Origin: Thiobacillus sp.
GTDB lineage: Bacteria > Pseudomonadota > Gammaproteobacteria > Burkholderiales > Thiobacillaceae
Direction of reading: 5' to 3'
Length of the DNA: 64,000 nucleotides
Assembly: GCA_016124745.1 (NCBI GenBank)
Contig: WGNC01000004.1
Span: forward strand, 1 to 64,000
Shown here piece after piece: positions 48,191 through 50,890 of the stretch (its first letter is position 1; each line of letters starts with the position of its first letter). The position numbers and the translations under genes are program-made. The notes under the pieces are model-generated. The model saw only the letters and a list, made by a program, of their open reading frames with translations. It was not told where the DNA came from and made no database searches.

Positions 48191-48212
48191 AAAAAAGGGG
48201 ACGGCGCTGCCG
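48191..48212. terminator. Left half of a bidirectional terminator split by the transposon
   Basis: AAAAAAGGGGACGGCGCTGCCG lost its partner strand. Joined to CCCCCTTTTT at 50881-50890, it would form AAAAAGGGG-CGGC/GCCG-CCCCTTTTT with a 3-base loop and A-C mismatch. It would have ended both the Met-rich gene (plus) and cysS (minus). Confidence 0.75.
48204..48212. repeat. Left copy of 9-bp target-site duplication (GCGCTGCCG)
   Basis: The identical 9 bases occur at 50872-50880, directly outside the other terminal inverted repeat. This is the expected footprint of transposon insertion. Confidence 0.85.
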
Positions 48213-48239
48213 CTAGGGGTTCAATTAAAGTGTTGAAAA
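48213..48239 (+). repeat. Left terminal inverted repeat (27 bp)
   Basis: It begins CTAGGGGTTCAATTAAAGTG and continues TTGAAAA. It matches the reverse complement of 50845-50871 except at base 10 (C here, A there). Confidence 0.9.
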
Positions 48240-48243
48240 TTAG

Positions 48244-48271
48244 CGCCTCCAGAGAAATCCGGAGGCGTTTT
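48244..48271 (+). terminator. Hairpin terminator just inside the element's left end
   Basis: CGCCTCC (48244-48250), a 10-base loop and GGAGGCG (48261-48267) are followed by TTTT. It would stop plus-strand transcripts entering from the Met-rich gene, replacing the function of the terminator that the insertion broke. Confidence 0.65.
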
Positions 48272-48306
48272 CACGTTCGCGACACTTAGCCACAGTTCGG
48301 CGCTGT

Positions 48307-48891
48307 TTGCGGTCTTTTGGCCGCATATTGCCCGCGTTTGCGGGTCAGCAGAAAAACAGCCACGCGCCCACCCCGGCGCACCAAACCAGGTGGACACGTG
48401 ATGTAACTATATTGGCAAGATTGTGGCGGCTAGGCAAGGGCTTTAGGACGATCAGCGAGTTCTCCGTCCTGGTCAAGCCGCGCCTGGCCCTCCCACCCAA
48501 GATCACCCAGCTCACCGGTATCGACCAGGCAATGCTGGACGGTCAGGGCATACGCCTGCACGATGGTTTCCGCCAGTTGCTGGACTTCCTCGGCGACCGC
48601 CCCGTGTTCGCGCATCACGCGGCGTTCGACCAGTCCTTCCTCGTCAACGCGTCGGCCCAATGCGGCCTTGGCTTCTCCAACGTGATGTACGACACGATCT
48701 GCATGGCGGAGGCCGCATGGCCCGAGCTGGACTCCTATGCGCTGTTCAGCCTTGCGCAGCGCATGGGGCTGGGCAACTCGCCCGCGCACAGGGCGCTGGC
48801 CGACGCCAAGGCGACGCTGGACGTGCTGAAGGCGGCTGACGTGGTGCTACGCTCGCCACACCGGCCTAAGGGGCATCAGCGGCGCTGCTAG
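48307..48891 (+). pseudogene. Decayed DnaQ-like 3'-5' exonuclease carried by the element
   Basis: The readable part (from about 48435) has EFSVLVKPRLALPPKITQLT, then Exo II-like VFAHHAAFDQSFLV and Exo III-like AHRALADAKATLDVL, as in DEDD exonucleases. The Exo I motif (DxE) is missing. The in-frame N-terminal sequence is unlike the family and begins only with a TTG. In another frame just upstream (about 48390-48440) the words VDT and IGKIVAARQG look like the lost beginning, broken by stops. This indicates a frameshifted, inactive gene. It overlaps the transposase gene tail to tail by 26 bases. Confidence 0.7.
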
Positions 48892-50788
48892 CGCGTTCTC
48901 GGGGCATAAAGTAGAGGATCGCGTCGGTGTCGACCGGCGCATTCGCCAGGCCTATCCGCATCGCCGGCGTCTTGCCGTCCTTGCCCTTTTCGACGTAGTT
49001 GTGCATGACGCGATAGATGGTCAGTAGCTTCTCCACCATGAGCGGATTGTAGGGGCTGTATCCGTGCCAGGTGCGGCCGGCCCTGCTCGAAGTGTGTATG
49101 GGCCGCTCCAGGGGATTCAGCCGGCGCCGCACGCGCTGGAAGAAGTTGTCGATACCCGCCACACTGGCCTTCAGGAACAACCTGGCGATGTGATCTTCCT
49201 CGCTGCTGTAGTCGGTACCTTTGCTATCGCCGTATGGCACCAGCGCAGTCGAGGCAGGTCCCATGATCGCAGGCAGGCCCTCCGGCCGGAGCGGATCCGG
49301 AATCTCGGTTAGCCAGCACATGGCCTTCTCCGGCTCCGACATGTTCGGGGACGGGTGCATGCACCACCTGTCGCTCCACTTGCCAAGGGGCGACCTGTTC
49401 CGTATCTCGTGCTTCATCATTTCCAACCCGATCTCTTTGGGCGTCCAGCCTGGGTTGGCGTCTTGCATGCGTTTGAACAGGGCCTTCGCCGTGGTCAGCG
49501 CCGCTTGCTTCTTCGGCACGGTCAGCTCCTTCGCCGTCCTGACGTAGAAGGCGTCGACGCGGCGCAGCTTCACGTCCTGCGCGAACGCGGCAAGGCACGC
49601 GGCCCGCATGCCGGAATCCTGGTCGAGGAAGAAGCGTATCTTGGCTGCCCACTTCAGCAGATCCTTCAGAAAAAGGAAGTGCCCGTACAGCGAGTACTCC
49701 TCGTGCACCTGCATCCCTTTGGCATCGGGCAGACGTTGGGTGCCGTCCTTGCATTCCGAGACCTCGGGGTCTTCCCGTTCGGCGGCCTCGCGGTAGCTGT
49801 CCTCGATCTTGGCGCCCAGGGATTCCTGTGGAATCAGGCCACGCTTCTCGCGCTTGGCAAGTGAGGCCTCCACCGATTCATCGTAGTCGGACTGCAGCCA
49901 CAGCCGCGCGTACTTGCGGTGCGGATAGGGCTTCTTCCGGTCTTGGACGGCCTCGACATCCTCGGCCACCGCATCCGGATCGACATTGGGGTCGAAATTG
50001 ACGTGCATGCCGAACACGAAGCCGGAGGCGTTGTCCGCGCTGCCGACCGCCCGCAGCACGATGTTCCGCCGATCGGTGTACCGGCTCCAGTTCACCTTGT
50101 ACTCCTGCCGGTCCACGCTGATGTAGAGGCGGTGGATCGGCAGCGTTTGAAAAGCGCGTTCCCGCTCTCCCGAAAAGGCTTGACACTGCCTGTAAAGGAA
50201 ATCTATCTTGCCGTACAGCGTGGCTGCGTTGAGTCCGGTGACGTTCAGTATTCGCTTGATCGGCATCTTGTTGGTCAGCGCCAGCAGGATGGTTTTGTTC
50301 AGGTGCGTGGTGCGTTGCCGCCGGAGGGCCTTCTGGCTGCGGGTGATGGTCTTGTTGCAAGCACGGCAACGCCACCGGGGAGCACCAGTGGATGACTTGC
50401 CGAAGCGGTAGTAGGCCTTGCGATCCGTCACAGGTGTGCTGCCGTTGACGCAGCCGGGAGTGGTACAGCAGGGATCAGGTGTGGGCTGAAGGTATCGGCT
50501 GAAGCGCTGCTGCTCCTCGGCGACGGCCAGGTTGCTTTTGACCGAGAATGACTCGCCGCATAGCAAGCATGCAAGTGCTGGCCTGCTCTTTCCGTTGGCA
50601 ACCAGCCTGTATGCGATGCCGGGCTTGCCAGCAACGTCAGGGTGGGTCTTCCGGCGCCACTTGACGATGTCGGCCGGGACGCCGAAGTTGTCGCACGCCG
50701 GGTTCTTGCAGAAATTGACGTTGATGCCCGCCACCGGTGGCGGCAGGGCTCCCTCGTCTTCTTCAACCGCCAGCAAAATCGCTGCCAA
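48866..50788 (-). CDS. Putative transposase with N-terminal zinc ribbons, unrecognised family
   Basis: This 640-residue protein starts at a TTG with GGGGGA six bases upstream. Two Cys-rich modules lie at the N-terminus: FCKNPACDNFGVPADI with CLLCGESF, and CCTTPGCVNGS with RWRCRACNKTITRS; the second resembles IS1-type zinc ribbons. A helix-turn-helix-like stretch follows (MPIKRILNVTGLNAATLYG). Possible catalytic acids are D in LYISVDRQEY and D in RFFLDQDSGMR, with an E or D near GIDNFFQRVRRRLNPLERP, in the order of DDE enzymes. Length is about three times that of IS1 family proteins. The terminal repeats and target duplication around it support a transposase; catalytic residues are inference. 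Confidence 0.75.
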   Translation of the reverse strand: MAAILLAVEEDEGALPPPVAGINVNFCKNPACDNFGVPADIVKWRRKTHPDVAGKPGIAYRLVANGKSRPALACLLCGESFSVKSNLAVAEEQQRFSRYLQPTPDPCCTTPGCVNGSTPVTDRKAYYRFGKSSTGAPRWRCRACNKTITRSQKALRRQRTTHLNKTILLALTNKMPIKRILNVTGLNAATLYGKIDFLYRQCQAFSGERERAFQTLPIHRLYISVDRQEYKVNWSRYTDRRNIVLRAVGSADNASGFVFGMHVNFDPNVDPDAVAEDVEAVQDRKKPYPHRKYARLWLQSDYDESVEASLAKREKRGLIPQESLGAKIEDSYREAAEREDPEVSECKDGTQRLPDAKGMQVHEEYSLYGHFLFLKDLLKWAAKIRFFLDQDSGMRAACLAAFAQDVKLRRVDAFYVRTAKELTVPKKQAALTTAKALFKRMQDANPGWTPKEIGLEMMKHEIRNRSPLGKWSDRWCMHPSPNMSEPEKAMCWLTEIPDPLRPEGLPAIMGPASTALVPYGDSKGTDYSSEEDHIARLFLKASVAGIDNFFQRVRRRLNPLERPIHTSSRAGRTWHGYSPYNPLMVEKLLTIYRVMHNYVEKGKDGKTPAMRIGLANAPVDTDAILYFMPRERASSAADAP

Positions 50789-50844
50789 AGAAAATCCCCC
50801 AAAGGCCTATGACCTATGGAGGATTGTAGGAATTGCTCAGGTTT

Positions 50845-50871
50845 TTTTCAACACTTTAATTTAACCCCTAG
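50845..50871 (-). repeat. Right terminal inverted repeat (27 bp)
   Basis: The reverse complement of 48213-48239 with one mismatch. It is followed by the second copy of the 9-bp duplication. The transposase start lies 56 bases inside it. Confidence 0.9.
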
Positions 50872-50890
50872 GCGCTGCCGCCCCCTTTTT
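50872..50890. terminator. Right half of the split terminator with second target-site copy
   Basis: GCGCTGCCG (50872-50880) repeats 48204-48212, and CCCCCTTTTT (50881-50890) is the displaced 3' arm of the hairpin. On the minus strand this half follows the cysS stop without a complete stem, so cysS transcripts may now run into the element. Confidence 0.75.

Follow-up and report, generated by a model that had tools for sequence, protein, structure and literature searches.

What occupies positions 48,213 to 50,871 of the 64,000-nucleotide stretch of Thiobacillus sp. DNA analyzed here (contig WGNC01000004.1, positions 1 to 64,000; "the window")? An initial annotation, made from the letters alone, had proposed a transposable element whose zinc-ribbon transposase fits no nameable family. 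Our results indicate that the feature is very probably a member of a DDE transposon family that prefers intrinsic transcription terminators as targets and whose transposase combines two Cys4 modules, an IS1-like zinc-ribbon/helix-turn-helix (HTH) region, and an enlarged RNase H-fold core.

Boundaries and empty site of the element

The element is bounded by terminal inverted repeats (TIRs) and a target site duplication (TSD):

48213..50871, no strand: whole element, 2,659 bp, defined by the TIRs and the exact 9-bp TSD
48213..48239, plus strand: left (cargo-end) TIR, 26/27 match to the right end
50845..50871, minus strand: right (transposase-end) TIR, 26/27 match to the left end
48204..48212, no strand: left TSD copy, GCGCTGCCG, exact 9 bp, directly outside the left TIR
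50872..50880, no strand: right TSD copy, GCGCTGCCG, exact, directly outside the right TIR

The 27-bp repeats of the initial annotation were recovered on recomputation, and the 9-bp duplication outside them proved exact. The two end regions have an inverted-repeat score of 24.5, against a mean of 9.8 and a maximum of 14.5 in 200 shuffles; this and the TSDs found family-wide rule out a chance inverted repeat. The repeat runs past the TIRs, to 50 nucleotides (nt) at 78%, because the element sits in a palindromic target, a transcription terminator, whose halves now flank it:

48191..48203, no strand: left half of the interrupted terminator (A-tract, G-rich arm), from the empty-site hairpin; dyad-centered by the rule given below
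50881..50890, no strand: right half of the interrupted terminator (C-rich arm, T-tract), from the same hairpin; dyad-centered by the same rule

The initial annotation suggested looking for an empty site in related strains, and one exists: in five related genomes (those aligned among eight whose left-flank match reaches 78% identity or more), this interval is an intact terminator without the element, ahead of a cysS-like gene.

The transposase

A single intact open reading frame (ORF) of 640 codons encodes the protein, with the following parts:

48866..50788, minus strand: transposase, 640 amino acids (aa), TTG start, no internal stop, DDE fold predicted
50558..50710, minus strand: first Cys4 module (C27/C32/C74/C77), kept in 44 to 45 of 46 members
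50357..50467, minus strand: second Cys4 zinc ribbon (C108/C113/C141/C144), conserved, IS1-like by profile match
50201..50308, minus strand: HTH, residues ~161 to 196 (model helices 161 to 172, 177 to 184, and 188 to 215; IS1 profile match)
50111..50113, minus strand: D226, putative first catalytic acid, 46/46, within the first core strand
49622..49624, minus strand: D389, putative second catalytic acid, 45/46, immediately past strand 383 to 388
49106..49108, minus strand: E561, putative third catalytic acid, 44/46

The protein thus has the make-up described by the initial annotation. Each of the eight cysteines is kept in 44 to 46 of the 46 aligned family members, the HTH is seen both in the model and in the IS1 profile match, and conserved acidic residues stand in DDE order within a predicted RNase H-like transposase fold. 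We propose D226, D389, and E561 as the catalytic triad, the third tentatively; E561 is retained in the dfrG-carrying member described below, in which D547 is replaced by N. The core is predicted to be enlarged by insertions. Its fold resembles that of DDE transposases with helical insertions, namely the IS256 type and its relatives (ISCth4, Hermes), from which the family differs by its zinc ribbons; this is judged from VIA-align lists, and folds outside those lists may match as well. Kinship with IS256 by sequence was rejected (Prob 0.4%; no match of the IS256 profile in the window's genome), and a PDB sequence search returned weak hits only, mostly to zinc fingers.

A family of elements with the same ends

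Scanning GTDB genomes with a conserved peptide gave 99 relatives, of which the best 80 were kept, representing 77 loci. The initial annotation had named absence of the same ends around homologues as an argument against mobility; both TIRs are present at 44 of these 77 loci, of which 37 have a readable flank on one or both sides and 7 (L031, L036, L042, L051, L053, L076, and L093) lie at a contig edge or are duplicates. Adding the window element, L151, L007, and L008 to the 37 gave a set of 41 elements, some with end coordinates set by hand; L058, which has no right flank, was left out of the TSD count, leaving 40 with readable flanks. Of these 40, 34 have a TSD (32 exact, 2 with one mismatch), 9 bp long in 23 and 10 bp in 11, the latter class possibly including chance extensions. 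Several elements with no TSD have terminator-like halves on either side, perhaps through recombination between copies.

The TIRs are typically 23 to 30 bp long, and most fit C[A/T]AGCC..., with an inner TGTTGA common. The transposases are about 590 to 650 aa long, and the hosts, mostly metagenome-assembled genomes, include by record title proteobacteria, Geobacter- and Desulfo-type bacteria, Nitrospirae, Methylomirabilota, Acidobacteria, and one Clostridia. Matched TIRs, TSDs, and varying cargo make membership of the window element in this transposon family well supported at the level of sequence, in line with the mobile unit originally proposed.

When 398 genomes of the phylum were surveyed, 32 gave a match of any kind, many to the zinc ribbon alone. 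A motif search around 16 of the survey loci turned up a single family-like end and no pair, with a motif that also overlooked real pairs. A general end search of five full-length survey relatives (L098 to L102) found TIRs with an exact TSD in L101 and L102, both outside the family counts. Plasmid homologues from Acidovorax (L004) and Polaromonas (L005) have no convincing paired ends, and no near match to the window element occurred among the plasmids searched. An origin as a viral gene was rejected: a first viral scan found no relatives, a second gave a single contig, the carrier of the dfrG element, and a phage collection yielded two Staphylococcus phages. In the window's own genus, solitary family ends occur in L013 and L149 (genomes G045 and G047), L013 also having a 33-residue transposase fragment; these are decayed copies of the family.

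Target sites are mostly intrinsic terminators

The 34 sites reconstructed from TSD-bearing elements have a mean folding energy of −21.4 kcal/mol. Swapping right flanks among them gave −13.2 ± 0.58 kcal/mol, and 0 of 500 permutations reached the real value; the signal was weaker when only flank-to-flank pairing was scored (13.3 versus 9.8, standard deviation 0.84). A strict rule, formulated after the sites had been seen, demands four or more G-C pairs, a loop of 3 to 10, an A or T tract, and a dyad at most 3 nt from the TSD center; it holds at 23 of 34 sites compared with 251 of 66,688 positions (0.38%) in the same host DNA. Both tracts are present at 20 of these 23 sites versus 13 background positions, and a loose terminator rule gives 24/34 versus 283/6,800. 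What the sites have in common is a structure, the terminator, with no obvious sequence. A preference of the family for intrinsic terminators, with the TSD centered on the hairpin dyad, is therefore well supported by these sequence comparisons.

Could this association merely reflect survival, with near-random insertion and tolerance of insertions at gene ends? Terminators are intergenic and neutral, and many of the flanking genes scanned resemble basic metabolism, as that explanation would have it. Against it, the TSD center lies within 1 nt of the dyad in 23/23 rule-positive sites despite the 3-nt tolerance, and survival bias alone is insufficient because neutrality would equally permit other intergenic positions. 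We consider this explanation very unlikely.

Two known groups of elements have comparable targets. According to PMC4923244, IS1272/TnSha1 of the IS1182 family targets hairpins, several of them confirmed terminators, without primary-sequence specificity, and is reported to make blunt stem deletions without target duplication. Our family is alike in inserting into hairpins and terminators and differs in duplicating the loop region (9 to 10 bp), which implies a staggered cut. No IS1182 model appeared among Pfam or NCBIfam hits at E up to 1, the IS1182 profile itself being left uncompared. REP-targeting insertion sequences such as ISPpu9 and ISPa11 insert at extragenic palindromes (PMC1525189); they seek a specific repeat family, unlike the elements studied here.

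Relation to named families

No curated Pfam or NCBIfam model recognizes the 640-aa protein above its cut-off, so membership in a named family was rejected by those libraries. To this extent the initial claim that the protein fits no nameable family stands; it does not hold for the second zinc ribbon and HTH, which are recognizably IS1-like.

This likeness raises the possibility that the element belongs to an outlying IS1-family branch grown by insertions, for example the ISMhu11 group, rather than to a separate family. The best NCBIfam hits are IS1 models (E 6e-5), and an IS1 profile, built from three sequences only, matches over 66 columns (Prob 95.4, E 1.7e-8) at about residues 127 to 196, the zinc ribbon and HTH. 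The 9-bp TSD points the same way, given that IS1 duplicates 8 to 9 bp, as does the phage depositors' label "transpos_IS1 superfamily." Yet the match ends at about residue 196, ahead of the catalytic domain, whereas an IS1-IS1595 alignment enters that domain (164 columns); the IS1 score, at 23 bits, falls short of its cut-off, 100; and 640 aa is, as the initial annotation said, far more than an IS1 protein (225 aa for the transposase used). Also unlike IS1, the family has an extra N-terminal Cys4, an unmatched catalytic domain, transposases of about 590 to 650 aa, C[A/T]AGCC...TGTTGA-type TIRs, cargo, and terminator targets. We therefore regard an IS1 branch as quite unlikely. The IS1595 profile has no match in the window's genome and compares at Prob 51%, over the zinc ribbon/HTH plus the beginning of the core.

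Alternatively, the family may already be in ISfinder, under ISNCY or another heading, and merely be absent from the models searched. Some plasmid and phage homologues are indeed annotated "insertion element protein." However, of the 20 plasmid homologues listed (of 129 records), 17 are labeled "hypothetical protein," one is called "insertion element protein," and two have no annotation, although two of those plasmid records give ISfinder-style names to other elements. The five NCBIfam hits include no ISNCY model, and in the open-licence literature we found no paper on ISMhu11 and a mere mention of ISDol1. Prior naming thus seems to us unlikely, if not negligibly so. Open-licence papers also yielded no description of the family and nothing on the combination of defense, transposon, and terminator.

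Cargo of the longer members

The shortest elements, at ~1.9 kb, hold the transposase alone, and the longest reach 7.1 kb. Thirty longer ones have 59 cargo ORFs with a length of 90 aa or more, of which 46, with four of L151, were scanned against Pfam. Restriction-modification, toxin-antitoxin, or Abi-type genes occur in 15 of the 30, a count made without correction for kinship among elements. Restriction or methylation genes are carried by L023, L026, L028, L030, L031, L047 (a methylase fragment), L062, L079, and L093, and toxin-antitoxin-type genes by L041 and L065 (AbiEii), L068 and L082 (HipA), L056 (Fic), and L047 (Xre/RES). L064 has an ApeA-like ORF by Pfam only; PADLOC, run on ten cargo ORFs, hit four and missed this one among others. 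DUF6035/CoiA-like proteins occur in L052, L055, and L056, and the recognized extra genes of L022 are of the IS21 istA/istB type, a nested insertion (L022:7334-9626). The remaining cargo has no match or is of unrelated types (pilin-like, cold-shock, BRCT), and L025 has no cargo ORF. Among the nearest flanking genes, 29 of 30 chosen from 41 candidates (L008 left out), none matched a restriction-modification, toxin-antitoxin, or Abi family at E ≤1e-4, and 4/29 had no hit at all.

An insertion sequence in the strict sense is thereby rejected, the term being too narrow as longer members carry cargo. Tn7-like transposons also land at the ends of genes and bring along accessory cargo that includes defense genes, and our family is like them in both respects. 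A TnsC- or TnsD-type helper was found in none of 50 cargo ORFs scanned, with one sub-threshold TnsA-like hit (L088), and the TSD of ~9 bp differs from the 5 bp of Tn7.

The window copy has cargo of its own, in decayed form:

48307..48891, plus strand: DEDD/DnaQ-like exonuclease remnant lacking the N-terminal motif (RNase_T, E 6.9e-16, from profile position 32)

Its closest relative is L151, a 7,053-bp element with TIRs paired at 27/27, the TSD ACCTGAGGG, and a transposase 81% identical to that of the window; L151 splits a terminator located after what is presumably an atpC-like gene. Over 136 aa, the remnant shares 79% identity with an exonuclease gene of L151 that is intact (230 aa) and spans RNase_T profile positions 2 to 164; three more L151 ORFs have no Pfam hits. 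The window aligns to L151 at 79% from 48455 to the right end, plus the left TIR. Because the match in the window starts at profile position 32, motif I is absent. The copy has the look of an internally deleted element, a shortened relative of the 7-kb cargo-bearing form.

A dfrG-carrying member in Gram-positive bacteria

A 3,276-bp Gram-positive member carries dfrG with a family transposase (L014:165-3440). It is matched at least in part by the viral contig L014 and 163 plasmid records, at least 80% of it being covered in 89, and it also lies inside Staphylococcus phages. Flanks were read for 11 copies (L014 and L189 to L198) and place it at seven TSD-bearing sites (L014, L189, L190, L191, L192, L193/L194, and L195), or at least six, as L192 and L193 may share one terminator in opposite orientations. 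By eye, L189, L190, L192, L193, and L195 are clear terminators (four or five distinct), and L014 and L191 are weak. L196 and L198, which have no TSD, have the same left flank as L191, and L197 shows one additional base at L014's site. Near-identical elements at different sites are an indirect sign of transposition, drawn from sequence comparison.

Records annotate this transposase as "hypothetical" or "insertion element protein." A 2021 paper goes no further than noting that the latter seems to be always linked to dfrG (PMC8638950), and another ascribes dfrG to IS257 in the abstract and cites a dfrG/IS256 unit in the introduction (PMC4923244).

A possibly domesticated relative

Eight genomes of one genus of the same class (L104 to L111) gave strong survey matches, each an intact relative of 493 to 526 aa. 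The gene (about 1380 to 2980, in transposase orientation) directly follows a deoD-like phosphorylase-superfamily gene. In the alignment, all eight cysteines are kept, D389 is lost in 8/8, and D226 is lost in 7/8, and neither motif nor general search found family ends (0/8). This relative is probably catalytically dead and is possibly a domesticated transposase.

A putative promoter overlapping the right end

The transposase gene appears to be read from its own TIR:

50823..50851, minus strand: transposase promoter by consensus match, −35 TTGAAA in the right TIR, 17-nt spacer, −10 TACAAT

By a rule made after the window site was seen (TTG within the first 30 nt and a −10 box of at least 4/6 at 16 to 18 nt), a promoter-like site occurs at the transposase end in 24 of 41 elements versus 0/41 at the other end, uncorrected for kinship. 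Since the −35 box falls inside the TIR, a transposase occupying this end would probably compete with RNA polymerase, which suggests self-repression. At the opposite end, a hairpin just inside the left TIR (48242 to 48267) could serve as a replacement terminator.

DISCUSSION

How might such an element choose its target? We infer that the zinc-ribbon/HTH part binds the TIRs and that the DDE core inserts the element into its target at a cut staggered by ~9 bp across the loop. A twofold symmetric transpososome would read the terminator dyad, or an extruded hairpin, and insertion there would avoid coding sequence. Transposase bound to the TIR may meanwhile hold down its own promoter, and longer members would spread restriction-modification, toxin-antitoxin, and other genes.

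Several points weigh against this account. The window's genome assembly holds one copy, its activity being putative, and the exonuclease remnant marks partial decay of that copy. The third catalytic residue sits in a weakly predicted loop. At 33 of the 77 loci there is no pair of ends (contig-cut, partial, or none found), and some of these genes are full-length; for one of them, L046 (= L012, a relative from the same genus), a renewed search was also negative. Six of 40 elements have no TSD (L025, L041, L045, L049, L060, and L070). The strict rule fails at 11/34 sites (L007, L008, L023, L026, L028, L032, L037, L050, L062, L065, and L082), and the terminator preference is not absolute, because four of these (L026, L037, L065, and L082) have no pairing across the TSD. 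That rule's late formulation belongs here too, the permutation test being independent of it, as do the promoter and cargo counts that ignore kinship.

On balance, we think it probable that this is a multi-phylum family, unnamed in the libraries searched, that selects its targets by shape: a symmetric transpososome would act on the terminator dyad, on an extruded hairpin, or during termination, cutting across the loop. The family would thus be a low-cost vehicle for defense genes in Gram-negative bacteria and for trimethoprim-resistance dfrG in Gram-positive ones, with a probably dead, possibly domesticated deoD-adjacent relative in one gammaproteobacterial genus. The widespread gene dfrG thereby gains a defined transposon of its own, and a zinc-ribbon transposase family below cut-off in Pfam and NCBIfam is added to the spreaders of restriction-modification, toxin-antitoxin, and Abi genes. 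The family also offers a clean case of a transposase that may recognize a terminator by its structure, with symmetry and stagger fitted to the hairpin.
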